DNA of 64,000 nt from Nocardia asteroides (lineage in GTDB: Bacteria; Actinomycetota; Actinomycetes; Mycobacteriales; Mycobacteriaceae), in contig CP082844.1 of the NCBI GenBank assembly GCA_019930625.1, positions 2,914,001-2,978,000 on the forward strand. Direction: 5' to 3'. A model generated the notes under the pieces. It was not told where the DNA came from. It saw nothing but the letters and a program-made list of their open reading frames with translations, and made no database searches. Shown in pieces: positions 41,017 to 56,524 of the stretch (the first letter of the stretch is position 1; each line of letters begins with the position of its first letter). The position numbers were made by a program, and so were the translations under genes.

Positions 41017-41035
41017 TATGGTGAGCCTATCCTAA
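41017..41035 (-). promoter_or_regulatory. IdeR/DtxR iron box upstream of flavodoxin
   Basis: On the minus strand TTAGGATAGGCTCACCATA matches the DtxR/IdeR consensus TWAGGTWAGSCTWACCTWA at 16 of 19 positions. It lies 19-37 nt before the flavodoxin start, suited to blocking transcription when iron is plentiful. Confidence 0.7.
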
Positions 41036-41379: not shown

Positions 41380-41499
41380 ATGTCACCGCGCCGGGCGCGG
41401 TCATCACTCGCCGATGTCGAGCATCGGCGGACTCATCGCTCGGCGCGGTGCCCCGAAACAGATCGGAAACCGGCGGATCGACGGATGTGGGAGGCAAGC

Positions 41500-42963
41500 A
41501 TGGTGGACAGGGGAGCACTGGGTACGGGGGCGGTAGAAATGGTGACGCGGCTCATGGCGAGCAATCTCGCCGTGTCCGCCGCGATGATCGAGGATCTCGG
41601 CTACTTGCGCGCGGAGCTGGCGACGGCGGAGGTGCCGTTCCTGCTCGTGCGCGACAGCGAGCACCGGCTGGTGCTCGCGGCCGACGCGGCGCACCGCACG
41701 ATGGTGCGCCGGGTGACCGCCGCGGCGATCGCGGCCGGGTTCGCCTGTAAAGAAATGCAGCACAACGTGTTCCGTCTCGGGCGCGACCATGATCCGGCGC
41801 ATCACGTCGAGCTGCAGCTGTGGGAGTACCACGGCGACACGGTGACCTGTCCGCGACCGAACGCGCTGACCCGCTCGGTGTTCGACCTCGCCGACGTCCA
41901 GCACACGCAGGTGCGGCTGTTCGACCGGAACTGGCCCACCCTCGTCGACATGTTCGCGCCCCAGACCAGCGATGTCGGTTTCGATATCGACCTGGTGTTC
42001 TCCTGGGTGGACGGCACCGATCCCGAGTTCCGCGCACGCCGCGCCGGGATGCTCGCCCAAGTCGTGGTCGGCGAAGGCGACGACGCGGACGCCAGGGTCC
42101 GCCAGATCGACGAGTTGAAGTACGCCCTGCGGTCGGTGCGCAAGAACGCGCCGTGGATCCGCAGGATCTTCATCGCGACCGACTCCACGCCCCCGGACTG
42201 GCTGACCGCGCATCCGAAGGTGACCGTGGTGCGCGCGGTCGACCACTTCCGCGACGTCAGCGGCTTGCCGGTGTTCAACTCACATGCCGTGGAAAGCCAG
42301 CTGCAGCACATCGCCGGGCTCAGTGAGCACTTCCTGTACTCCAACGACGACATGTTCTTCGCGCGGCCGGTGCGTCCGTCGATGTTCTTCACTCCGGGCG
42401 GGGTCAGCCGGTTCATCGAAGCGGACACCAGGATCGGGCCGGGGCGCAACAACGAGCGGCGCAGCGGTTACGAGAACGCCGCGCGGGTCAACCGTGCGCT
42501 GCTGGCCGAGCGCTTCGGCCATGTCATCACGCGGCATCTGGAGCACACGCCCGCGCCGCTGCGACGCAGCGTGCTCCTGGAGATGGAGGAGGAATTCGCG
42601 GCGGATTTCGCGCGCACCAGCGCGAGCCGGTTCCGGTCGGCCACCGACATCTCGGTCACCAATTCGCTGTACCACTACTACGCCTTGCTGACCGGGCGCG
42701 CGGTGCCGCAGGAGACGGCGAAGGTGCGCTACGTCGACACGACCAGCTACAGCGGATTGGCGCTGCTCGACGGGCTCGCACGCCATCGCGACGTCGATTT
42801 CTTCTGCCTCAACGACGGCAGTTTCCCCGAGGTCGCCGAGTTCGAGCGGGTGCGGATCGTCTCGGAGTTCCTGGCGGCGTACTACCCGGAACCGGCACCG
42901 TGGGAGCGGCTCAGTACACCGCCTCGTCATCCGCTTCGGGAGTCGACGCCTGGCGCCGCATGA
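41500..42963 (+). CDS. Stealth family sugar-phosphate transferase
   Basis: A 487-aa protein. The start ATG 41500 has GGGAGG 5 nt upstream. The Stealth conserved regions are visible: CR1 [16 protein letters not shown] (about residues 164-179), CR2 [28 protein letters not shown]3 with [26 protein letters not shown], and a C-terminal FFCLNDGS. Stealth proteins transfer hexose-1-phosphates to build phosphate-linked capsular or surface polysaccharides; mycobacterial CpsY-type proteins belong here. The donor and acceptor are unknown. Its 3' end overlaps the convergent phosphodiesterase gene by 53 bp. Confidence 0.88.
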
Positions 42964-44027: not shown

Positions 44028-45116
44028 TCACTGACCGAGGGCGTCGGCGGCGCGCAGGGCGTCGGCCACCATCGCGGCATCCACGGTGAAGGGTTCGTTG
44101 TGGATCGTTTCACCCGGGGCGGTCGCCCGCTGCGCGATGGCCGACAGCGTCTCGTCGTCGGCGTCGGACAGCCCGAGTGCGGCGAGCGTGGTCGGCAGGC
44201 CGACCTCCGCGCAGAAATCGAGCACCGTGCCGATCTCGGACGCGGGCGCGCCCTCGAGCACGAGTTGGGTGACGGTGCCGAAGGCGACCTTCTCACCGTG
44301 CAGGAACGGGTGGGTCTGCGCGGCGGCGGTGAGACCGTTGTGCACGGCGTGCGCGGCGGCCAACCCTGAGGACTCGAAACCGAGCCCGGACAGCAGCGTG
44401 TTGGCCTCGACGACGCGCTCGAGCGCGGGCGTGACGACGCGGTTGCGGACGGCGTTCAGCGCGTGGGCGCCGTCGGCGAGCAGGGTGCGGTAGCAGAGTT
44501 CGGCCAATGCGGTGGCGCTGCGCGTGGAAGCGCCGCCGCGCATGTTGCGCACCTGCGCGGCGCCGCACGTGCGCGCCTCGAACCAGGTGGCCAGGGCGTC
44601 ACCCATCCCCGCGATCAGCAAGCGGGCCGGAGCCTGGGCGACCACCGAGGTGTCCACCAGCACCAGCGCCGGATTCCGCCGGGCCAGCTGATACGCCTCG
44701 AACTCGCCCGCCTCGGTGTAGATCACCGACAGCGCGCTGCACGGCGCGTCGCTCGAGGCGGCGCTCGGGCAACTGATCATCGGCAGATCGAGGTCGTCGG
44801 CGACCGCGCGCGCCGCGTCGAGCACCTTGCCGCCGCCCGCGCCGAGGACGACAGTGCTGCCTGACTCCGCGACGGCGTGCGCGATCCGCGCGATCTCCGC
44901 CCTGCTGCATTCACCGCCGGACAACTGGACCGAATAGGCGATCCTCGCGTCCGTCAGCGAGCGCTCCCAGGTGTCGGCGAGCAGCCGGAAAGCGCTCGAC
45001 CCGGCCACGATCAGCACCGGACCGCCGATCCCGAGCCGGGTCATCTCCGCGCCGAGCGCGGCGGTGGCATCCCGGCCCTGCACGTAATGTCCCGGCGAGG
45101 AGAACACGCTCAGCAC
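44028..45116 (-). CDS. GldA-type iron/zinc alcohol (glycerol) dehydrogenase
   Basis: A 362-aa family III metal-dependent dehydrogenase. NAD-binding [18 protein letters not shown] is followed by [19 protein letters not shown] and the metal ligands in [23 protein letters not shown] and [10 protein letters not shown]. Glycerol dehydrogenase is the nearest named family; the true substrate may differ. The GTG has GGGAGGTG just upstream. It follows the MATE exporter by 160 bp and is the last gene of the minus-strand metallophore-like operon, so it may act on the pathway intermediate, or it may be unrelated. Confidence 0.82.
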
Positions 45117-45276
45117 CTGGCACCTCCCGATCCCGGGCCGCGAACGCGCGCTGTGACAGCCCGACCGAACGACCCTTCAACGCTACGCGAGGCGCGCCCT
45201 CGGGAAGTCGGCTTCGGCGATCGCCAGCGTCCTCCTACCCGACCAACGGTGGGGTTGGAGGACGCCGGCGACCGGA

Positions 45277-46680
45277 TCAGGTCGGTGTGGTGAGGGTTTC
45301 CGGGAGCAGCCGCGGCCGGTCGCGGTCCAGCTCGCCCAGCAATGCGAAGTAGCGGCGCAGCATGAGGATCGCGGTGGTGGCCAGACCCGCGGTGAGCCCC
45401 CACCAGACGCCCGCGGCGCCGAGGCCGGCCGGGTAGGCCAGCAGCAGGGCGACGGGCAGGCCGACGCCCCAGTAGCCGATCAACGAGAGCCGGAAGCCCG
45501 CGTTGGTCGCCTTGAGGCCGCGCAGCAGGCCGGTGCCGATGTTCTGGGCGGCGTCGAAGAATTGCAGCACGATGCCGATCAGCAGCAAGGTGTGCGCGAT
45601 CCGTACGGTGTCGGCGTCCGAGGAATCCAGGAAGGGGCGCAGCACCACATCGGGGGCCACCACGTACACCGCGCCGGTCACCGCCGCGATCACCGCGGCG
45701 TGTCGCAGGGCGAGCCAGGCCAGCGCGCGGGCGTGCGCGTGCTCGTCGCGGGCGACCGCGTGGCTGACCAGGATCGAGGCACCGTGCGACAGGCCGATCG
45801 CCACCTGGAAGACGATGTAGATGATCTGGTAGACGACGTTGTGCGCGGCCAGCGCTGCCGGTCCGATGCTGCCCATGACCAGGGCGAGCACCGAGAACAT
45901 GCCCGCCTCGGAGCCGTAGGTCAAGGCGATCGGCGTACCCAGCTTCAACTCGGCGCGCACCGTCGCCAGGCGCACCGGCAGCGGAGTCATCGGCAGCGTG
46001 CGGCCGAGTTCCTCGTCGCGCCAGACCATTGCCCAGAACACGCCGAAGGTGATCAGGAACACCAGCGAGGTCGCGACGCCGATGCCCGTGAGCCCGAGTT
46101 CGGGCAGCCCCGCCTTGCCGTGGATGAAGCCGAGCGCCAGCAGCAGGTTCAGCGCCACCGAGCCGAGCGTCACCAGCAACAGAGCCTGCGGACGCTGCAT
46201 GCCGACGGTGTACTGGCGCAGGACCTGGAACCACAGGCACGGCAGCAGGCCCGGCGCGAGGGCCACCATCAGCGGACGGGCGTCGGCGAGCACTCCGGGG
46301 TCCTGTCCGAGCCACGGCAGCACCCAGCCGAGTCCGATCAGCGCCGCGCCGCCGAGGAGGCCGGCGACCGTGGCGATCGCGAAACTCGACCGCAGCAGGT
46401 CACGGATCTCCGGATCCGGTGACGTGCCGCGCTTGCCCGCGGAGCTCACCGCGGTGGCGATCTGGTTGCCGCTGCCGGTGATCAACCCGACGCACATGGT
46501 GCGGATCTGGTTGAACAGCACGATCGCCAGCCCGCCCGCGGCCACCTGCCGGACACCGAGCGTGCCCATCAGCGCGATGTTGGTGGTGGACACCGCGATC
46601 TGCGCCAGCTGGGTGAGCGCGATCGGCGTGGCGAGCGCGGTGAGCCGCCCGCCGTCGCCACGGAAGCTCGAAATGATCAC
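45277..46680 (-). CDS. MATE family efflux transporter
   Basis: A 467-aa, about 12-helix membrane protein. The start GTG 46680 has AAGGAGG upstream. It has the MATE topology with PIALTQLAQIAVSTTNIALMG at the first helix, PGLLPCLWFQVLRQYTVGMQRP in the middle and a duplicated second half. MATE proteins export organic molecules by H+ or Na+ antiport. Between SbnA-like and GldA-like genes in a presumed metallophore operon, it is the likely exporter of the product. Confidence 0.87.
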   Translation of the reverse strand: MIISSFRGDGGRLTALATPIALTQLAQIAVSTTNIALMGTLGVRQVAAGGLAIVLFNQIRTMCVGLITGSGNQIATAVSSAGKRGTSPDPEIRDLLRSSFAIATVAGLLGGAALIGLGWVLPWLGQDPGVLADARPLMVALAPGLLPCLWFQVLRQYTVGMQRPQALLLVTLGSVALNLLLALGFIHGKAGLPELGLTGIGVATSLVFLITFGVFWAMVWRDEELGRTLPMTPLPVRLATVRAELKLGTPIALTYGSEAGMFSVLALVMGSIGPAALAAHNVVYQIIYIVFQVAIGLSHGASILVSHAVARDEHAHARALAWLALRHAAVIAAVTGAVYVVAPDVVLRPFLDSSDADTVRIAHTLLLIGIVLQFFDAAQNIGTGLLRGLKATNAGFRLSLIGYWGVGLPVALLLAYPAGLGAAGVWWGLTAGLATTAILMLRRYFALLGELDRDRPRLLPETLTTPT

Positions 46681-46750
46681 CGGTCCTCCTTCGCAACCGA
46701 CGGGAGCGTCCCGCGCGGGCGCGGCGTCGCGCCGTACGACCGATCGGAGT

Positions 46751-47782
46751 TCACCGCGCCTCCACCAGAGCCTGGCGCGCGGCGGGCGTGTATCGCCGCA
46801 GCATGTCCGCGACCGAGCGTTCGGCATCGGCGTCGAGCAGGTCGCGCTCGTTCATCCACTCGTCGTCGAACACCGTGTCCAGGTACTTCTCCCCGCCGTC
46901 GCACACGATGGTGACCACGGTGGAGCCGGGCGGGAACTCCTCGAGCCGGGTGAGCGCGGCGTGCACCGAGCCGCCCGCCGACCCGCCGATCATCAGGCCC
47001 AGTTCTGCCGCCACCGCGCGGGCGGTCGCGAACGCCGCCACGTCGGAGACCTTGACGCCCTCGTCGAGTAGTGAATAGTCGACGGCGGTGCCGATGGTCG
47101 CGCCCGGCGGGGTACCGGTGCCCGACTGCCAGTACGGGCCGCCCGGCCCGCCGAAGGCGATGGAACCGACCGGCTCGACGCCGATCACGTAGGGTGTGCA
47201 GCCCAGCTGGCGCAGCCGGGTCGCGGTGCCGAACAGCGAACCGCCGGTACCCACCGCCGACAGCAGGATGTCCACCCTCTCGACGTCTTCGAGCAACTCC
47301 TCGGCCACCGCGTAGTAGCCCACGGCGTTGGCGTCGTTGTTGTGCTGCTCGGTGAAGAACGCGTCATCACGCTCGGCCGCCATCGCCTCGGCAAGGTCCT
47401 CCCGTGCCGAGGTGGCCAGGTTGTCGTCGCCCTCGTCGGCGACATACACCAGTTCCGCACCCATTGCCCGCATCGCGCGCAGTTTGTCCTTACATGCGTG
47501 ATGGTCGACTACCGCGGTGAAGCGATACCCACGTTCGGCGGCAACTACCGCGAGGCCGAGCCCGGTGTTTCCGGACGTGGATTCGATGATATGTCCGCCA
47601 CTGCGCAGCAAACCGCGGCGCTCGGCGTCGAGCACCATCTCGCGCGCCATCCTGATCTTGGCCGCACCGGTCGGGTTGAACTGCTCGAGCTTGAGCAGTA
47701 AGCGGGTGCCCGTCGCGGTGGCCGCGAGCTCGAACAGCGGCGTGCGGCCGATCAGATCCGTCACGCGCGTGACGAGCGGCAT
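46751..47782 (-). CDS. SbnA-like PLP synthase (cysteine synthase family)
   Basis: A 343-aa fold-type II PLP enzyme. The PLP lysine is K42 in FNPTGAAKIRMA, the substrate loop is ESTSGNTG (67-74), the phosphate loop is VGTGGSLFG, and the C-terminus has VCDGGEKYLDTVFDDEWM. Close to SbnA and Y4xP-type enzymes, which join O-phosphoserine and glutamate to N-(2-amino-2-carboxyethyl)-glutamate, the precursor of L-2,3-diaminopropionate. The neighbouring SbnB-like gene supports this over plain cysteine synthesis. It starts at ATG 47782 with GGAGAG upstream. Confidence 0.85.
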   Translation of the reverse strand: MPLVTRVTDLIGRTPLFELAATATGTRLLLKLEQFNPTGAAKIRMAREMVLDAERRGLLRSGGHIIESTSGNTGLGLAVVAAERGYRFTAVVDHHACKDKLRAMRAMGAELVYVADEGDDNLATSAREDLAEAMAAERDDAFFTEQHNNDANAVGYYAVAEELLEDVERVDILLSAVGTGGSLFGTATRLRQLGCTPYVIGVEPVGSIAFGGPGGPYWQSGTGTPPGATIGTAVDYSLLDEGVKVSDVAAFATARAVAAELGLMIGGSAGGSVHAALTRLEEFPPGSTVVTIVCDGGEKYLDTVFDDEWMNERDLLDADAERSVADMLRRYTPAARQALVEAR

Positions 47783-47816
47783 TGATCTCTCCTGGTTCGT
47801 ATCGGGGGATGTCGAG

Positions 47817-49199
47817 TCAGCTACCGTCGCGGGTCCAGCGGAAACGCTCGCCAGGTGCGTCGTGCAGCACGACTTTCGGTGGGATGGGGAGTTCGTGAAA
47901 GGCGGATTCGTTCGAATCCATCTGGTAGCCGGCGGTATTCGGGTAGATCAGCAGATCGCCGATCTCGGCGGGGCGGGGTAGCGGCACCCGGCGCCAGCTG
48001 AGCATGTCGGAGTCCAGACAGGTGGCGGCGCCGACGCTGGTCGGCGTCACGGCGCCCGGCCGCGCGGGCCACAGCACCGGATCGGGCAGGTACTCGCTGT
48101 CGAACCACTGCTCCGAGAGACTGAGACTGGTGCCGTCGACGGTGAGCAGCCGGTAGGGCCGGCCGTGCGCGTGCCTGGTCTTGCTGCCCTGCACGCGGAA
48201 GACGGTGCAGCCCGCGTGCGCCAGCAGCGCGCGTCCCGGTTCGATCGCCAGGCGCACGGCGTTGTCGCGCAGCCGTCCGGCGAGATCTTCGTGCGCGAGG
48301 ATCTGCGCGAGCATGGCCGCGCCGGGTACCGGAAAGTGGTACGGGTAGTACGAGTCGAAGGACTTCCCGGAGTGGAACCACTGCCTGCCCACCCGTTCGG
48401 CGAACTCCAGCGCGGCCTCGGCCGGAACGTAGTCGACGCCGAAACCTCCGCCGATCGACACGGTGGTGGCCGGATGCCCGAGTGTGCGGGCGTGCAGGCA
48501 GCGGGCGATCAGCTCGCCCGCCAGTTCCGCGCGCGCCACCGCGTCGTAGCCGGACAGGTGGAAACTGAAGCCCTCCAGCCGGATCGAGTCGCGGCTGCCG
48601 CACACCGCCAGCGCGTCGTCGATTTCGCCGGATGTCATGCCGAACCGGCTGGCCGAGGCCGCGGGCAGCACTCGGATAAGCACGCGCGCGGGCGCCGCGG
48701 AGGAGGCCAGTGCGGCGAGCCGGTCGAGCTCGGCGGGATCGTCCACGGCGATCAGCGAACCGTGCCGGGCGGCCAGCCAGAGCAAATCGTCGGCCTTGGC
48801 CGGTCCGGTCACCATGAGCTCGTCACCGCGGACGCCCTGGGCCAGCGCGGCGGTCAGTTCGCCGACGCTGGCGACGTCCACGCCCACGCCGTGTTCCGCG
48901 CACGCCCGTGCGATGCACGCGGCCTTGTTCGCCTTCTTTCCGTAGTAGATCGCGCCGTGCACCCCGGCGTGCGTGAAAGCTGCATGGAACGCCTGGATGT
49001 TGTGTGCCACCCGCGCCGGATACATCACATGGAACGGGCCGCCCATCGCGAAAGCCAGGTCACCGAGCAGATCCGGATCGGTGAGCAGTCGGCGCTCCCA
49101 CGGATCGAGATGCGCGGGCATCGGCGCCGCGCTGATCGAATCGTGCGCGGCCGCATCCGATCCCGGTTCCACGACGGTACCCGTGTGTTCTAGGCCCAC
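47817..49199 (-). CDS. Y4yA/SbnH-like PLP-dependent decarboxylase (fold type III)
   Basis: A 460-aa alanine-racemase/DapDC-fold enzyme. The PLP lysine is in YYGKKANKAA (K89), the glycine loop is VSIGGGFGVDY, AIEPGRALLA follows, and the active-site Cys-x3-Asp is in TCLDSDML. It resembles Y4yA-family proteins and SbnH, which decarboxylates an intermediate in staphyloferrin B synthesis. The GTG start has GGAGGTG upstream. It is packed between SbnB-like (16 bp) and SbnA-like (34 bp) genes. Its substrate is unproven; diaminopropionate-derived or amino-acid carboxylates are likely. Confidence 0.83.
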   Translation of the reverse strand: MGLEHTGTVVEPGSDAAAHDSISAAPMPAHLDPWERRLLTDPDLLGDLAFAMGGPFHVMYPARVAHNIQAFHAAFTHAGVHGAIYYGKKANKAACIARACAEHGVGVDVASVGELTAALAQGVRGDELMVTGPAKADDLLWLAARHGSLIAVDDPAELDRLAALASSAAPARVLIRVLPAASASRFGMTSGEIDDALAVCGSRDSIRLEGFSFHLSGYDAVARAELAGELIARCLHARTLGHPATTVSIGGGFGVDYVPAEAALEFAERVGRQWFHSGKSFDSYYPYHFPVPGAAMLAQILAHEDLAGRLRDNAVRLAIEPGRALLAHAGCTVFRVQGSKTRHAHGRPYRLLTVDGTSLSLSEQWFDSEYLPDPVLWPARPGAVTPTSVGAATCLDSDMLSWRRVPLPRPAEIGDLLIYPNTAGYQMDSNESAFHELPIPPKVVLHDAPGERFRWTRDGS

Positions 49200-49215
49200 C
49201 GTGCACCTCCGTGCG

Positions 49216-50247
49216 CTAGTCCCACAGCGGCACCTCCGTGCCCCGGCCTTCCGCGATCGCCCGCTCGGCCAGCGCGTGGGCCACCGCGATGTCGGTCAGC
49301 ACCAGGCCGCTGTTGTAGACGAAGACTCGCTCGTCGTCCGAGCGCCGCGCGACCGCCCGACGACTCAGGATCTGCGGCAGTTCGGCGTCGACCGGACGCA
49401 GCGTGCCGTCGGGGCCCACCATGTCGGTGCCGGTCAGCGCCATCTGCTCGGCGCTGGTCGCGATCACCCGGTCGGCATCGCTCAGCGTGGACGGCGCGAG
49501 TCCGTAACCGACCAGCACGGCCACCGAACCCGGTGCCAGATCCTCGGATTCGAGCGCGACCTCGGTGGCGGGACCCGCGGTTGCCAGCACGACATCGGCG
49601 GTCGCCGCCGCCGCGCGGGGATCGGTCACGGTCTCGAGCAGCGCGTGCGGATGGTGCTCGGCGAGCCCGCGGTGCACGGCCGCCAGCCCCTCGGGGTGCG
49701 TCCCGTAGACCATCAGCTTGCGCAGCTGCGGATTCGCGGCGAGCAGATGCGGAAGGGCGTTGCGGCCCTGGGTTCCGGTGCCGATCAGCAGCACGCTCTC
49801 CGCGCCGCGCCGGATGGTCTCGCGCACCAGCAGGGCCGACACCGCGGGCGTGCGCAGCGCGCCGACACGCGCGCAGTCCATCATCGCGATCGGCGCGCCG
49901 GTGCTGTCGTCGTAGAGCGTGATGGTCGTGTAGTACCGCTTCGTGCTGCGATCGTGGCCGGGGTCGAACTTGTAGGAGGTCTTCATCGCGACCACGCGCC
50001 TGCGGCCGTCGCGGCCGAGCATGGCGTAGGCGACCGACCAGCCGTCCGGGTTCGCGACGCTGAGCTTGCGCGGGTTGTCCGAATCACCGGCGGCGAACGC
50101 CAGATACGCCTCTTCCACCGCGCGCACCACCGCGGCCGGCGTGATCGGCACGTCGGCGAGGTCGCTGCGGCTCAACACCCGCAGGGGTGTGCTTCGGTCA
50201 CGCGTGCTCAAAGGGTCCTCGATCATGTCGTACCGCATCCCGCTCAT
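49216..50247 (-). CDS. SbnB-like ornithine cyclodeaminase-family dehydrogenase
   Basis: Up to 343 aa; ATG 50226 (MIEDPLSTRD) is an equally plausible start. Ornithine cyclodeaminase/mu-crystallin fold: GDSDNPRKLSVANPDGW, TSYKFDPGHDRSTKRYYTTI, the NAD-binding LLIGTGTQGRNALPHLL and VNPYxxL-like end. The KFDPGHD and TKRYYT details resemble SbnB, which oxidatively splits the SbnA product to L-2,3-diaminopropionate and 2-oxoglutarate. It overlaps the end of the hydroxylase gene by 29-50 bp depending on start, indicating coupling. Confidence 0.83.
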   Translation of the reverse strand: MSGMRYDMIEDPLSTRDRSTPLRVLSRSDLADVPITPAAVVRAVEEAYLAFAAGDSDNPRKLSVANPDGWSVAYAMLGRDGRRRVVAMKTSYKFDPGHDRSTKRYYTTITLYDDSTGAPIAMMDCARVGALRTPAVSALLVRETIRRGAESVLLIGTGTQGRNALPHLLAANPQLRKLMVYGTHPEGLAAVHRGLAEHHPHALLETVTDPRAAAATADVVLATAGPATEVALESEDLAPGSVAVLVGYGLAPSTLSDADRVIATSAEQMALTGTDMVGPDGTLRPVDAELPQILSRRAVARRSDDERVFVYNSGLVLTDIAVAHALAERAIAEGRGTEVPLWD

Positions 50248-51355
50248 CAGTGCCGCTCTCGACCGGCGAAGTGAGCGCCGCTCGGAACGGGGCTACGATT
50301 TGTTGCCCGTAGCCATTCTCATCCGCTTCCCCGGTCCGCCGCCGTCGTTCCGGAAGCCGGATGTTCACTCGCTTGAGCCACCGGTCGGTGCCGTCGTACC
50401 GTGCGGTGAACGGCACCCGGCCGTGCACGGCCACGTCGTTGTCCACCAGCAACAGCTCGCCGGGCTCGAGCGCGGCGGTCACGCAGACGCGTTCGAGTTC
50501 CGCGGTGAGCTGCTCGTAGGCAGCGCGGAATTCGGGATCGGCTTCCGCGAGCGGGGTGTACGCGGGGTCGTAACGCAGCGTCTGCTGGTCGGGTCCGCCC
50601 GCGCTCCACAGCGTCGGAATCGGCGCTGCGCAATACATTTCGTGGCCGTCACCGTAGGAGACGTCCGGCAGGATCGGCAGCGTGGGCGTGCTGAGCACGG
50701 CACGCTGCTCGGTGGACAGTTCGATCCGGCGCACCGACGAGACGGTGGTGCCGACCAGGTCCGGATTGCGCAGGCAGCCGAGCATCAGCAGGTGCGCGCG
50801 CCGCGGATGGAAGGCGTCCTCGGTGTGCGGGCTCAGCAGTACTCTGCTGCTGGCGCCGGACTGTTCGTGCTCGTGACCGGCCGCGGGGACGATGTTGTTG
50901 ACCAACCGCCCGTCCTGCTGTCCCTGCCAGCCGAACGGCTCGCCCGCGCTGCGCGCGAGCAGCAGCATGACCAGGTCGAGTTCGAACGAGTGTGCGCGCA
51001 GCGCCGGATCACCGCTCCAGCGCGCCGCCTCGCGCCAGCTCGGCGGCGTCGGCCCGAATTCGTTGTCCGACAGCGGAAGACGGCCGACGATGGCGGCTCC
51101 CGCCGCTGTGGCGGGCGGCCGCACGGCGTGACGCAGCTCGGCCGGGAGCTGCGCGGCGCCGGCATCGATCCGTTCGATCAGCGCCGGGTCCGCGAGCGTG
51201 CGCGCGGCGGCGGCCGGATCGGTGAGGGCGAGGTCGAGTGTGGCGGAGATCTCTCTGGCGAGTTCGCGCACCGCCCGGCCCGCCTCAGCGGAAAACTCGC
51301 GTCGTTCGAGATCTTGTTGGTGAAGCGTCTTACGTTCGGAGAGAACGCTTTCCAC
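50198..51355 (-). CDS. Fe(II)/2-oxoglutarate amino-acid beta-hydroxylase (VioC/AsnO-like)
   Basis: A 385-aa clavaminate-synthase-like oxygenase. Iron ligands are His177 and Glu179 in SPHTEDAFHPRR (the H-x-E form of arginine/asparagine hydroxylases) and His311 in VDNDVAVHGRVPF; Arg325 or Arg329 in DRWLKRVNIR should bind 2-oxoglutarate. GCLRN after the first motif is also typical. These enzymes beta-hydroxylate free or carrier-bound amino acids, giving iron-binding hydroxy groups in several metallophores. It is the first gene of the minus-strand operon, 76 bp downstream of an IdeR-type box. The substrate is not certain. Confidence 0.85.
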   Translation of the reverse strand: MESVLSERKTLHQQDLERREFSAEAGRAVRELAREISATLDLALTDPAAAARTLADPALIERIDAGAAQLPAELRHAVRPPATAAGAAIVGRLPLSDNEFGPTPPSWREAARWSGDPALRAHSFELDLVMLLLARSAGEPFGWQGQQDGRLVNNIVPAAGHEHEQSGASSRVLLSPHTEDAFHPRRAHLLMLGCLRNPDLVGTTVSSVRRIELSTEQRAVLSTPTLPILPDVSYGDGHEMYCAAPIPTLWSAGGPDQQTLRYDPAYTPLAEADPEFRAAYEQLTAELERVCVTAALEPGELLLVDNDVAVHGRVPFTARYDGTDRWLKRVNIRLPERRRRTGEADENGYGQQIVAPFRAALTSPVESGTDERDAVRHDRGPFEHA

Positions 51356-51430
51356 CGGAGGTCCCTTCTTCGCATCGGTTCGAAAAGCAGGGTGAACGAT
51401 TAGTATGCGAAGGTAGCCCTTCCCATGGAG

Positions 51431-51449
51431 TGAAGCAAGGCTTACCTAA
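51431..51449 (-). promoter_or_regulatory. IdeR/DtxR iron box for the biosynthesis operon
   Basis: The minus strand reads TTAGGTAAGCCTTGCTTCA, 16 of 19 matches to TWAGGTWAGSCTWACCTWA. The first half-site (TTAGGTAAGCCT) is perfect. It lies 76 bp before the hydroxylase start. Confidence 0.7.
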
Positions 51450-51601
51450 GCGCGTCGGCGAAAAAATAGCCGAATCGCATAACTTGGGTTGCGACTCGGG
51501 TGGTCGTCTACGGGTGCGCCGGGGCTTGTTTCGATGAGTTTGCGGGCGGTACGCCCCAGTGCTGCCGTTTTGGTGCCGCTATCGGCGAGTCGCGCAACCC
51601 A

Positions 51602-51620
51602 TTAGGCTAGCCTGTCCTGA
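51602..51620 (+). promoter_or_regulatory. IdeR/DtxR iron box for the uptake operon
   Basis: TTAGGCTAGCCTGTCCTGA matches the consensus at 15 of 19 positions and contains the perfect palindrome AGGCTAGCCT. It lies 56 bp before the binding-protein ATG. Confidence 0.62.
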
Positions 51621-51676
51621 TCAATACACTGAGTGCGGGTACCGCCGTGGGTTCGGTTCAGGAAGAGGGCAGCGCA

Positions 51677-53194
51677 ATGGTTTTGAATCGACGGCAACTG
51701 CTGGGGTCTGGTCTCGGCGTCGGGGCGCTACTGCTGGTAGCCGCATGTTCCGACGGCACGAACCCCTCCGGGCCCGCGCGGCGCGGCGGCACGCTGCGCG
51801 TCGGCGCGCTCGGCACCGCGGCCCGCATCGAACGCGATCCGCACGCCAACCTCAGCAACGACAGCGACTTCCTGGTCACCTCGCTGGTCTACGACGCCCT
51901 CACCGTGCCGGGCGGAAACCCGAATATCGCTGCGCGCCTGGCCACGCGCTGGGAGCCGGACGCCGATCGGCGGCGGTGGAGCTTCACGCTGGCCGAGAAC
52001 GCGACATTCCACGACGGGTCTCCGGTGACGTCCGAGGACGTCGTGTGGTCGCTGCGCAGACTGCGCACGGTCGGCGGCGCCTCGAAGATGCCGGTGGCCG
52101 TGGAGGACATCACCGCAGACGGGCCGAACCGGGTGATCCTCACGGTGCCCGCGCCGAATACCCAACTGCCGCTACTGGTCCGGTTGATGACCTTCACGGT
52201 CAAGAAGGACACCACGGACTTCACCGAGGCGATCGGCAGCGGACCGTTCCGGTTGGAGTCCTACCACGGCGGCAACGCCCGGCTGGTGCGCAACGACCGG
52301 TGGCACGGCACACCGCCGCTGCTGGACGCGATCGAGGTCACCATGTTCGAAAGCGTCACCGCGCTGGGCAACGCGGTGCTCGGCGGGCAGATCGACTTCG
52401 CCTCCAACGTCGGCGCCATCGCCGGACGCACCGCCGAGGGACGCGGCGACCTGACGGTCGTTCGCCGCCCGAACGACACGATGCTCGGCGTGGCCATGCG
52501 AACCTCCGACGGTCCGTTCTCCGACGCGCGGGTACGCACCGCGCTGCGGCTGGGCGTCGACCGCAAAGCCCTGGTGAACCAGGTGCATTCGGGCTACGGG
52601 TCGGTGGCCAACGACATCCTCGGCACCGGCGACCCGCTCTACGACACCTCCATCGCCCAGCACACCCGCGACGTGGACCGCGCGAAGGCGCTGCTGCGCG
52701 AAGCGAATTTCGACACCGGCCGCAGCTATCCGCTCGTCACCAAGGCGGAGGCCCCCGGCGAGGTCGAGTCGGCGAAGGTCATCGCCACCCAGCTCGCCGA
52801 CATCGGCGTCCGGCTCGAGGTGGTCACCCAGGAGCCCAACGCCTTCTACGACCAGACCTGGCTGAAGGCGCCGCTGTACACGGTCTCCTGGGGCACCAAC
52901 GACTCCACGCTCTTCTTCGCCAGCAATCTGCTCTCCAGCGGCTCCAACCGCAACGAAACGGCCTTCAAGGACGCGGCTTTCGACGCCGCCACCGCCAAGG
53001 CTTCCGCCGCGCGCAGCGATTCGGAGTACCAGCAGGCCGCCCAGGAAGTGCAGCGCATCCAGTACGAGCGTGGCGGCTACCTGGTCTGGGGTATGGCCGA
53101 CGGCATCGATATCGCCTCCTCCCGGGTGCGCGAACTGCCCACCCTCGGCGGGTTCGCCCGGGTTCAGTTGGAAAGGGCTTGGCTGGCCGAGTGA
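51677..53194 (+). CDS. Opp/Nik-type substrate-binding lipoprotein
   Basis: A 505-aa SBP family 5 protein. The start ATG 51677 (MVLNRRQLLGSG) has GAGGG 7 nt upstream. It has a twin-arginine-like lead and lipobox VAAC, so it is exported and lipid-anchored at the outer face of the membrane. Family marks: RIERDPHANLSNDSDFLVTSLVYDAL, FHDGSPVTSEDVVWSLRRL and VRTALRLGVDRKALV. Family members bind peptides, nickel, or metal-opine complexes such as staphylopine. Its iron box and divergence from the biosynthesis genes suggest a metallophore ligand. Downstream permease genes overlap by 4 bp. Confidence 0.87.
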   Translation: MVLNRRQLLGSGLGVGALLLVAACSDGTNPSGPARRGGTLRVGALGTAARIERDPHANLSNDSDFLVTSLVYDALTVPGGNPNIAARLATRWEPDADRRRWSFTLAENATFHDGSPVTSEDVVWSLRRLRTVGGASKMPVAVEDITADGPNRVILTVPAPNTQLPLLVRLMTFTVKKDTTDFTEAIGSGPFRLESYHGGNARLVRNDRWHGTPPLLDAIEVTMFESVTALGNAVLGGQIDFASNVGAIAGRTAEGRGDLTVVRRPNDTMLGVAMRTSDGPFSDARVRTALRLGVDRKALVNQVHSGYGSVANDILGTGDPLYDTSIAQHTRDVDRAKALLREANFDTGRSYPLVTKAEAPGEVESAKVIATQLADIGVRLEVVTQEPNAFYDQTWLKAPLYTVSWGTNDSTLFFASNLLSSGSNRNETAFKDAAFDAATAKASAARSDSEYQQAAQEVQRIQYERGGYLVWGMADGIDIASSRVRELPTLGGFARVQLERAWLAE

Positions 53195-54120
53195 TCTCCT
53201 TCGCGCGACTCCTCTTGCGGCGCGTCATCCTGCTGGTGACGCTGCTGGCGTGCGTCTTCGTGGCGGTGGATCTGCTGCCGGGGAATACCGCCCGTGCCGT
53301 CCTCGGCCGGGAGGCCACGCCGGAGCAGATCGCGGCCAAAGAACACGAACTCGGCCTGGACCGCCCGCTGGCGATCCGGTTCCGGGACTGGATATCGGGT
53401 GTGGCGACCGGTGATTTCGGGCGTACCGCGCGCGGGCGGTCGGTCAACGACCTGCTCGTCGACAAGTTCCCGCCGACGCTGCTGCTCGGCGGACTCGCCC
53501 TGGCGCTGACCGTGCTCGCCTCCCTCGCGCTGGGCGCGTGGTGGGCGACCCGCCCGGGCAGTGCGGCGGCACGCGTATTGCAGCCGGCGACGACCACGGC
53601 GGTGGCGGTCCCGGAGTTCGTGATCTCGACGGTGCTGATCCTGATCTTCGCGCTGGCGCTCGGCTGGCTGCCCGCCGTCACCATCACCGACCGGTCCGGA
53701 TTCCCGGCCGGGCCGCAGATGCTGGTGCTGCCGGTGCTCGCGCTCGCGTTGCCGCAGATCGGGTGGAACACCAGGGTGGTGCGCGCCGCCCTTTCCGACG
53801 CGGCGCTCGCGCCGCACGTGGAAAGCGCGGTGCTGGACGGACTTTCGACGCGGGTCGTACTCACTCGGCACGTGCTGCCCTTCGCGTTGCCGACGATCGT
53901 CGCCAGCTTCGCCACCACGGTGGGGATGGTGCTCGGCGGCGCCCTGGTGGTGGAGACCATCTTCAACTACCCCGGTCTCGGTGCGGTCCTGGCCGGTTCG
54001 GTGGCCGACCGTGACACCTCGGTGGTCGCCGCGGTGGTCGCGCTGTCCGGAGTGGTGATCATGGTCATGCTGGCCGCCGCCGACGGCATCCGTACCTGGT
54101 CGTTGCGGGGGCGGCGATGA
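53191..54120 (+). CDS. ABC importer permease (DppB/OppB type)
   Basis: A 309-aa inner-membrane permease. GTG 53191 overlaps the binding-protein stop (GTGA). The N-terminus LLLRRVILLVTLLACVFVAVD, then LPGNTARAVLG, GDFGRTARGRSV and a six-helix core with the cytoplasmic coupling motif (AHxxSAVLDGLSTRVVLTRHVLP) identify the first subunit of a family 5 importer. It overlaps the next permease by ATGA. Confidence 0.88.
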   Translation: MISFARLLLRRVILLVTLLACVFVAVDLLPGNTARAVLGREATPEQIAAKEHELGLDRPLAIRFRDWISGVATGDFGRTARGRSVNDLLVDKFPPTLLLGGLALALTVLASLALGAWWATRPGSAAARVLQPATTTAVAVPEFVISTVLILIFALALGWLPAVTITDRSGFPAGPQMLVLPVLALALPQIGWNTRVVRAALSDAALAPHVESAVLDGLSTRVVLTRHVLPFALPTIVASFATTVGMVLGGALVVETIFNYPGLGAVLAGSVADRDTSVVAAVVALSGVVIMVMLAAADGIRTWSLRGRR

Positions 54121-54965
54121 CCGTTTCCAGGGCGGTGCGCAGAACAAGGGCGACAGGCGCAGAGCGTCGGCGGGCGAAGCGCGGGCTGGGCCTGCTGACC
54201 GTCGCGCCCGCGCTGGTGGTCACCATGCTGTCGGTGCTCGGGCCGACACTGGCACCACACGCCGCGCAGGAGGCGGTCGGCATACCGTTCGGTGATCCCG
54301 GCGACGGCGCGGTGCTCGGCACCGACCGGCTCGGCCGGGATGTGCTCAGCCAAGTGCTCTACGGCGGTTGGGGATTGCTGTTGCTGTCGGCTGTCATCGC
54401 GGTGGCGGTCACCGGTCTGTCGTGTGTGCTCGGCGCGGTCGCCGCCCTGCGTCCGCGCATCGGCGCGATGATCGAGCTGGGCACCGACTTGTTCATCCTG
54501 ATCCCGGCGGTGCTGGGCATCCTGCTGGTACTGACTTCCTGGCCGGACGCGGGCAGCGTCGGACTCATCGTGGTGGCGCTGCTGTTCGGCGTGCCGTACT
54601 GCGCACGGATCTTCGCGGCGGCGGCCGCGGGGGTCGCGGCGTCCGGGTTCGTGGAGAGCGCGCTGGCCGCGGGCGAGCCGCTGCGGCATCTGGTCTTCCG
54701 GGAGGTGATCCCGAACATGCGCGAAGTCCTGACCACCCAGCTCGGGCTGCGTTTCGTGGCCGCGGTCTACCTCGTGAGCACGGCGTCCTTCCTGCAACTG
54801 CCCACCACGCTCGGTGCGAGCAACTGGGCGGTCATGGTGCGCGAGAACGCCTCCGGCATGCTGCTCAATCCCTGGGCCGTGCTGGCCCCGAGTCTTGCGA
54901 TCGCGATCGTCGCGGTGAGTGTGAACCTGGCGGTGACGGCGTTCGGACGAGGGGTGCGGGAATGA
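54117..54965 (+). CDS. ABC importer permease (DppC/OppC type)
   Basis: A 282-aa inner-membrane permease with a basic N-terminal tail, six predicted helices, the family mark DRLGRDVLSQVLYGG near residue 65, and coupling motif SALAAGEPLRHLVFREVIPN. It pairs with the upstream permease to form the channel. Overlaps of 4 bp with both neighbours (ATGA) indicate one operon. Confidence 0.88.
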   Translation: MTVSRAVRRTRATGAERRRAKRGLGLLTVAPALVVTMLSVLGPTLAPHAAQEAVGIPFGDPGDGAVLGTDRLGRDVLSQVLYGGWGLLLLSAVIAVAVTGLSCVLGAVAALRPRIGAMIELGTDLFILIPAVLGILLVLTSWPDAGSVGLIVVALLFGVPYCARIFAAAAAGVAASGFVESALAAGEPLRHLVFREVIPNMREVLTTQLGLRFVAAVYLVSTASFLQLPTTLGASNWAVMVRENASGMLLNPWAVLAPSLAIAIVAVSVNLAVTAFGRGVRE

Positions 54966-56524
54966 ACGACGACATTCCGGTGCACGACCTCGTCGCGGTC
55001 GAGAACCTGACCGTGCTCGCCGCGGACGGGCGGGAGCTGGCCGGTCCGGCGACCTTCCGGATACCGGCGGGCACGGTCACCGCGCTCACCGGTCCGTCCG
55101 GGTCCGGCAAGACCACGGTGATGCGCGCCCTGCTCGGACAACTGCCCTCCGCCGCGGCGCGGACGACCGGTTCGGCGTCGGTCGCCGGGCACGACGTGTT
55201 CGCGCTGAATCGCGACGCGCTGCGTCGTTTCCGGCGCAGGCACATCGCCTACGTGGGACAGGATCCGGGATCGGCGTTGAACCCACTGCTGCGCGTGCGC
55301 GCCCTGTTGCGCGAAGTGGCTCCGGACGCGTCCAAGTCCACCCTCACCGATACGCTGGCGCTGGTCGGCCTGTCGCCGGACTACCTGCACCGCCGCCCCG
55401 GGGAACTCTCCGGCGGTCAGCAGCGCCGCGTCGCCCTCGCCAGGGCGCTGATCCGCCGGACCGGCGTGCTGGTGCTCGACGAGCCGCTCGCCGGGCTGCA
55501 CGGCGCCCTGCGCACCGACATCGCCGGACAACTCGCCGCACTGGCTCGGGAGCGGTCTACGGCGATCCTGCTGTCCGGGCACGACACCGCCCTCGTGCAC
55601 TCGATCGCCGACGACGTCGTCGAACTCGGGGACGGTCTCCCGGCGTCATCGCCGATCGGTCCGGGCTCGGCGTCACGAACCGCCGTCTCCGCAGCGGTTT
55701 CCGATGCCGAATCAGGGCCGCGTGCGTCCGCGGCGGTTCGCGACGAGCCGAACGGCCGCGAGCGTTCACCTGCTACCGCGACGGACGATCGAGATGTCCT
55801 GCGCGCACGGGGAATCACCGCGTCCATCGACGGCCATCAGGTGCTTGCCGATATCGACCTCGCGCTCGGCGCGGGTTCGGCGCTCGCGGTGGTGGGCGCG
55901 TCGGGCGCGGGCAAGACCACGCTGGCGCGCGTCATCGCGGGTCTGCACGATCGCGCGAGCGGGTCGCTCACCCTGCGGGGCGAGCCGGTCACGGTCGGGC
56001 GGGGACGGCGTATCCGCTACGGCGCGGGCGGCATTCAGCTGGTCACCCAGAACCCCAGATCCGCGCTCAACCCGCGCCGCACGGTCGCGCAAACGCTGGG
56101 CCGCCCGCTACGGCGAATCGGCCGCGTCCCGCGCCGCGATCTCGCGCGGCGGATCACCGAGCTCCTCGCCGCGGTGGAGCTGTCCGCCGACATGGCCGCC
56201 CGCTACCCGCACGAGCTGTCCGGCGGCCAACGCCAACGGGTGGCGCTGGCCCGAGCGTTGGCCGCCGACCCCGCCGTGCTCCTGTGCGACGAGATCACCT
56301 CGGCCCTCGATCACGCCACCGCGGCAGCGATCATGGCACTTCTGGACCGGATCCGGGCCGAGCACGACACCGCCCTGCTGATCATCACCCACGACATGGC
56401 GTTGGTCGCCGAATATTGCCCGAGGCTGCTCGTCCTCGATCACGGACGCATCGTCGAATCCGGCCACACCGGAACCGTTCTCGCCGCACCCGCGCACAAC
56501 GCGACCAGTGAGCTGCTGGTCTGA
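54962..56524 (+). CDS. Double ABC ATPase (DppD-DppF fusion type)
   Basis: A 520-aa protein with two nucleotide-binding domains in one chain. Walker A GPSGSGKTT (about residues 41-49) and GASGAGKTT (about 315); signatures ELSGGQQRR and ELSGGQRQR; Walker B VLVLDEPLAG and VLLCDEITSALD; switch His in SGHDTAL and ITHDMAL. A ~60-residue Ser/Ala/Arg-rich linker joins them. It powers the family 5 importer encoded just upstream. In many family 5 importers these are two separate genes. Last gene of the iron-box operon. Confidence 0.9.
   Translation: MNDDIPVHDLVAVENLTVLAADGRELAGPATFRIPAGTVTALTGPSGSGKTTVMRALLGQLPSAAARTTGSASVAGHDVFALNRDALRRFRRRHIAYVGQDPGSALNPLLRVRALLREVAPDASKSTLTDTLALVGLSPDYLHRRPGELSGGQQRRVALARALIRRTGVLVLDEPLAGLHGALRTDIAGQLAALARERSTAILLSGHDTALVHSIADDVVELGDGLPASSPIGPGSASRTAVSAAVSDAESGPRASAAVRDEPNGRERSPATATDDRDVLRARGITASIDGHQVLADIDLALGAGSALAVVGASGAGKTTLARVIAGLHDRASGSLTLRGEPVTVGRGRRIRYGAGGIQLVTQNPRSALNPRRTVAQTLGRPLRRIGRVPRRDLARRITELLAAVELSADMAARYPHELSGGQRQRVALARALAADPAVLLCDEITSALDHATAAAIMALLDRIRAEHDTALLIITHDMALVAEYCPRLLVLDHGRIVESGHTGTVLAAPAHNATSELLV

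Follow-up and report, generated by a model that had tools for sequence, protein, structure and literature searches.

In the Nocardia asteroides locus described here we recognise, with high confidence, the Nocardia version of an aminopolycarboxylic-acid siderophore cluster of the EDHA type, the product of which is predicted. Clusters of this kind are already known and published; the first-pass annotation of this DNA saw the genes correctly and missed the recognition. Five minus-strand genes (45277–51355) diverge from a four-gene plus-strand ABC importer (51647–56524), and the nine genes together occupy 11.2 kb (45277–56524) of the window, by which we mean the whole 64,000-nucleotide stretch analysed (G000:C1:2914001-2978000, from a genome of 7.4 Mb in two contigs, the proteins of which closely resemble those of Nocardia). 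Assembly of such a siderophore would require neither NIS nor NRPS enzymes and would most likely proceed through C–N bond formation by a PLP enzyme and a dehydrogenase, a route that is already in print.

Gene content of the locus

All genes named below are open frames that match the stated families, using the ORF list together with Pfam and NCBIfam profiles. The minus-strand core begins with an Fe(II)/2-oxoglutarate hydroxylase of the GntD/VioC/OrfP-like type (50198–51355), which has a TauD match in Pfam and matches to GntD and VioC below cut-off. It is followed by an SbnB-like dehydrogenase of the ornithine cyclodeaminase (OCD/mu-crystallin) family (49216–50247; PF02423), a PLP decarboxylase with the DAP/ornithine decarboxylase fold (47817–49199; PF02784), an SbnA-like PLP synthase with the cysteine synthase fold (46751–47782; PF00291, PALP) and a predicted MATE-family exporter (PF01554, MatE). 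The exporter is given here as its listed ORF, 45277–46827; its NCBIfam matches start at residue 60 or beyond, and the true start probably lies further inside this frame.

The family 5 importer that had been proposed on the plus strand, facing the minus-strand operon, was confirmed in all its parts. It comprises an Opp/Nik-like substrate-binding lipoprotein (SBP; 51647–53194; NikA-like matches below cut-off), two permeases and a fused double ATPase. The first permease (53191–54120, start approximate) is the C-terminal part of ORF 51559–54120, has matches to PF00528 and PF19300, and has orthologues in relatives; the second (54117–54965) matches PF00528. The ATPase (54971–56524, start approximate) contains two ABC_tran stretches within ORF 54368–56524. 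On the other flank, also on the minus strand, lies a neighbour gene for a GldA-like glycerol dehydrogenase (44028–45116), with an Fe-ADH/glycerol dehydrogenase match.

Correspondence with published clusters

EDHA denotes ethylenediaminesuccinic acid hydroxyarginine, a name that reaches us from the title of Spohn et al. (2018, Metallomics 10:722) via the papers that cite it. In its available portions, PMC10702961 describes an EDHA aminopolycarboxylic-acid cluster with four genes, AesA-D, found using antiSMASH 7, the output of which has an 'aminopolycarboxylic-acid' class; citing Spohn 2018, the same portions place EDHA in Streptomyces scabies, S. avermitilis, Corynebacterium pseudotuberculosis and another Corynebacterium, and N. 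brasiliensis. Extracts of PMC8914351 give the S. scabiei EDHA cluster as 11 kb, running from scab_5231 to scab_5311 and missed by antiSMASH; this would be nine genes if the locus tags step by ten. A preprint (PMC11888242, in excerpt) equates the family with MIBiG BGC0002567 and counts 1,450 windows across 24 genera, Nocardia contributing 328, and the accessible text of PMC10920908 describes in N. mangyaensis NH1 an aminopolycarboxylic-acid metallophore cluster that has a MATE gene and is controlled by the iron regulator DmdR1. The terms EDDS, aminopolycarboxylic and ethylenediamine do not occur in PMC7413640, on Nocardia metabolites, and EDHA appears in PMC6256639 in the reference list alone.

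The gene combination, which had been reported as unrecognised, matches the EDHA clusters published for N. brasiliensis, Streptomyces and Corynebacterium, as far as the available portions of PMC10702961 describe them. The SbnA-like, SbnB-like, PLP decarboxylase and MATE genes occur together; the Fe/2OG oxygenase appears, by similarity, to be of the arginine hydroxylase type; and the iron boxes point to iron-responsive control. Orthology to a published carrier species is provided by N. brasiliensis NBRC 14402 (L017), a strain that may differ from the published one. Here the nine genes have the identical order, with 65–92% identity: 76% for the hydroxylase, 91% for the SbnB-like enzyme, 81% for the decarboxylase, 92% for the SbnA-like enzyme and 85% for the MATE protein, with 83% for the SBP, 70 and 78% for the permeases and 65% for the ATPase of the importer. 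We found no difference between L017 and the nine genes of the window except in the placement of GldA. With BGC0002567 the locus shares cluster type, MATE gene, iron control and a size of ~11 kb, the comparison with S. scabiei being by published size only.

The hydroxylase and its substrate

The best NCBIfam match of the hydroxylase was GntD, an enduracididine hydroxylase model (243.6 bits), ahead of VioC (205.8 bits), with both scores below cut-off. It is the hydroxylase that distinguishes EDHA from EDDS. At an E-value of 0.001 the enzyme matched 16 solved sequences, 11 of which reached 1e-34. These 11 comprised eight named L-arginine hydroxylases, two CmnC and, as the best match, 6daw, named 'non-heme iron hydroxylase'. 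We take the eight to be the OrfP and VioC entries, CmnC to be an arginine hydroxylase and 6daw to be the arginine desaturase NapI. The five weaker matches were an asparagine oxygenase, two clavaminate synthases and two lysine hydroxylases. The sub-cut-off scores led by GntD, together with these five matches named for other substrates, weigh against the EDHA assignment. That eight of the 11 nearest solved relatives are L-arginine hydroxylases is as EDHA predicts.

Across the hydroxylase homologues (the best 120 of 918), the catalytic motif H-[TS]-E-D was found in 121/121 sequences, with HSED replacing HTED in 15 of the 120 listed homologues; HGR was found in all 120 and R-x-D-P-A-[YF] in 119. 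The latter motif aligns with the guanidine-binding loop of VioC. The reaction predicted for the enzyme is beta-hydroxylation of arginine or of a conjugate of it. One segment of the protein is shorter than in OrfP and CmnC, and hence the exact substrate may differ, e.g. by being a conjugate.

The same shortened segment might allow hydroxylation after condensation. A Nocardia variant of EDHA that is modified in this way, or that carries another amino acid arm, is unlikely on our reading; if it were true, the genus would hide a small family of aminopolycarboxylate siderophores. We give still less credence to a product of the same family in which the hydroxylase acts on aspartate or EDDS to yield a hydroxylated EDDS-type chelator. 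While the shortening relative to OrfP and CmnC and the scores under the VioC and GntD cut-offs would both suit such a product, the closest solved proteins for which a substrate is named are hydroxylases of arginine, R-x-D-P-A-[YF] is kept in all but one of the 120 listed homologues, and EDHA is reported for N. brasiliensis in the available portions of PMC10702961.

The [S,S]-EDDS cluster (aes) of Amycolatopsis japonicum shares with the window an aminopolycarboxylate logic that dispenses with NIS and NRPS enzymes. EDDS is Zur controlled, and no hydroxylase is known from the aes cluster. In contrast, the window has a hydroxylase and iron boxes, and a scan with a Zur consensus gave no Zur-like sites within it; what characterises an EDDS cluster was not found.

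Conservation and extent of the cluster

We compared the loci around the best 80 of 342 decarboxylase relatives, all 80 of which are titled Nocardia, counting a gene as present where its match exceeded 200 bits. All five core genes were present in 75 of the 80 loci, and in 75/75 they had one order and strand (hydroxylase-SbnB-decarboxylase-SbnA-MATE); the remaining five loci had three or four of the core genes. Two loci lacked a hydroxylase match and three a MATE match at this threshold, L067 among the latter with a partial match near a contig end. The SBP gene was adjacent and divergent in 39/80 loci and absent in 32 with at least 5 kb of upstream sequence; seven had shorter upstream sequence. 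From these gene-order counts, the conserved unit is therefore the five biosynthesis and export genes plus, often, an adjacent importer, and the gene set is widespread in Nocardia.

A non-adjacent importer distinguishes part of the Nocardia loci from EDHA clusters and speaks against the EDHA assignment. Since the biosynthesis operon stands without an adjacent importer in 32 of the 80 loci, the uptake genes may lie elsewhere. In two of these 32, a Pfam scan revealed no replacement importer nearby, the neighbourhood consisting of FHA/ABC-2 genes in L037 and of enolase and Ppx/GppA genes in L069. Six of the 32 (L033, L034, L049, L052, L054 and L075) have a weak match (31–32%) to the importer ATPase, located at least 4.5 kb upstream of the hydroxylase.

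The minus-strand genes had been described as a six-gene operon ending in GldA. The five-gene core of that operon stands; its sixth member does not, since GldA follows MATE in only 11 of the 77 loci with a MATE match. In those 11 it comes after MATE on the same strand, and all 11 are among the closest relatives (L001–L013). In 13 of the 80 loci it is ~5–6 kb off on the opposite strand, beside a phosphoesterase gene, and it was unmatched in 48 loci with at least 6 kb of downstream sequence and in five with less. Because its placement varies across the 80 loci, we regard GldA as a neighbour outside the conserved operon, and we rejected it as a pathway enzyme on its same-strand position after MATE in 11/80 loci only. 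A clade-special step added by this dehydrogenase in a six-gene pathway would be compatible with the EDHA assignment, and the confinement of the same-strand arrangement to L001–L013 would agree with it; the displaced copies in 13 loci, the 48 loci without a match and the good match of the protein to ordinary glycerol dehydrogenases nevertheless make it highly improbable. In practice, GldA should be left out of the cluster and the importer expected to be frequently non-adjacent.

The nine-gene set was also found beyond these 80 loci. Two genomes of the same class (L100 and L102) have the identical divergent set, and the gap between the two arms again contains iron boxes. All nine genes also occur on a plasmid of Rhodococcus opacus PD630, where the importer lies upstream on the same strand. 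This plasmid came from a search with the hydroxylase, which matched 102 plasmid records; 20 were listed and two regions examined. In the second region, from a Streptomyces anthocyanicus plasmid, the hydroxylase lies amid other genes and the cluster is absent. Among 396 sampled genomes of the phylum, seven contain a decarboxylase relative at E ≤1e-30. The hydroxylase is beside the decarboxylase in five of these, namely three genomes of the same genus (source included) and two of another family. In the sister-genus genome there was no hydroxylase within 20 kb of the decarboxylase, and in the distant relative the decarboxylase is alone in 4.4 kb of sequence.

Iron boxes in the divergent gap

The description of the locus as an iron-boxed island was borne out. 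Two predicted IdeR/DmdR-type iron boxes lie in the gap between the divergent operons, one at 51431–51449 (14/19 consensus bases), ~80 bp ahead of the start of the hydroxylase gene, and one at 51602–51620 (15/19), just upstream of the importer. Scanning the window gave eight rows at five places, counting both strands, whereas 100 shuffles averaged 1.09 rows. Near the hydroxylase start, the best box reached at least 13/19 in all 75 scorable loci of the 80 from Nocardia; as a control, the same score was reached in 55 of 1500 random windows of the same size from the same loci, with the true sites left in. This pattern fits control of the cluster by an iron-responsive IdeR/DmdR-type regulator. A third iron-box-like site is found at 41017–41035 of the window (15/19), 345 bp upstream of a Stealth-family gene (41380–42963).

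Condensing enzymes and the proposed pathway

The first-pass annotation had reported neither an NIS synthetase nor an NRPS gene, and both observations hold. There were no IucA/IucC matches in the whole genome, the same search giving matches in E. coli and Haloferax volcanii as a positive control, and none of the 70 condensation-domain matches in the genome falls within the window. No NIS synthetase is to be expected because the layout is that of the published aminopolycarboxylic-acid siderophore clusters. The earlier suggestion of a small non-NIS metallophore fits an EDHA-type cluster well, while the accompanying idea that a condensing enzyme is absent or encoded elsewhere falls away, since the published EDHA-type clusters need no separate one. 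The earlier reading was to fall if close relatives had a condensing enzyme matching a known siderophore: a known siderophore cluster was indeed matched, but of a kind that has no need of a separate condensing enzyme.

The best NCBIfam matches of the SbnA-like and SbnB-like enzymes were TIGR03945 SbnA (236 bits against a cut-off of 349.95) and TIGR03944 SbnB (96.7 bits against 326.9), and the decarboxylase is remote from solved decarboxylases (best E 3.7e-15). Scores below the equivalog cut-offs are in line with a role changed from diaminopropionate synthesis. The pair had been viewed as suppliers of free diaminopropionate; following the EDHA scheme, we prefer direct joining, in which the two enzymes most likely form the C–N bonds themselves with no diaminopropionate handed to a synthetase. 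The staphyloferrin B (sbn) cluster has SbnA, SbnB and a decarboxylase, all with counterparts in the window, but the genome has no NIS synthetase and the SbnA/SbnB-like scores fall short, and a staphyloferrin-B-like pathway was rejected on the missing NIS gene. Diaminopropionate supply to an NRPS was likewise rejected on the absence of condensation-domain matches in the window; production of free L-2,3-diaminopropionate to feed an NRPS encoded at another genomic site could appeal to SbnA and SbnB as the best matches and to the 70 condensation-domain matches, yet is made exceedingly improbable by the sub-cut-off scores of both enzymes, by a window free of such domains and by the fixed order and strand of the five genes in 75/75 complete loci, together with an exporter and, in many cases, an importer.

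Gene content and order, conserved synteny, conserved iron boxes, the catalytic motif and the lack of an NIS gene are observations; the chemical steps, their order and the product we infer from the enzyme families and the product name. Under low iron, an IdeR/DmdR-type repressor would leave the divergent promoters. The SbnA-like enzyme would then form the first C–N bond, adding an amino acid nitrogen onto a serine-derived acrylate, and the SbnB-like dehydrogenase would form the second, joining the other nitrogen reductively to a 2-oxo acid. The decarboxylase would remove the serine carboxylate to give the ethylenediamine bridge, and the hydroxylase would beta-hydroxylate the arginine part. Export of the chelator would be through the MATE protein and re-uptake of the ferric complex through the family-5 ABC importer. 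The proposed reductive C–N bond formation and the family-5 Nik/Cnt-like importer are reminiscent of staphylopine/Cnt; however, the importer of the window scores far below the Cnt cut-offs.

Related gene sets

In a sister genus of the same family (L101:7086-12194), SbnA-like, SbnB-like, decarboxylase and MATE genes occur without a hydroxylase match, and a gene for a multicopper oxidase lies upstream of them on the opposite strand. This set looks like an EDDS-type cluster; it has no convincing Zur box (best 11/15). A second, distant decarboxylase and SbnA-like pair, both 29% identical, is present in the source genome at G000:C1:6204456-6206911 (L103:8460-10912). It is preceded by an aminotransferase class V gene and an HMA-domain gene, and an ORF with half a condensation domain lies there on the opposite strand. 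Pairs similar to that of L103 were found in two more genomes of the genus Nocardia (L096, L097, L099).
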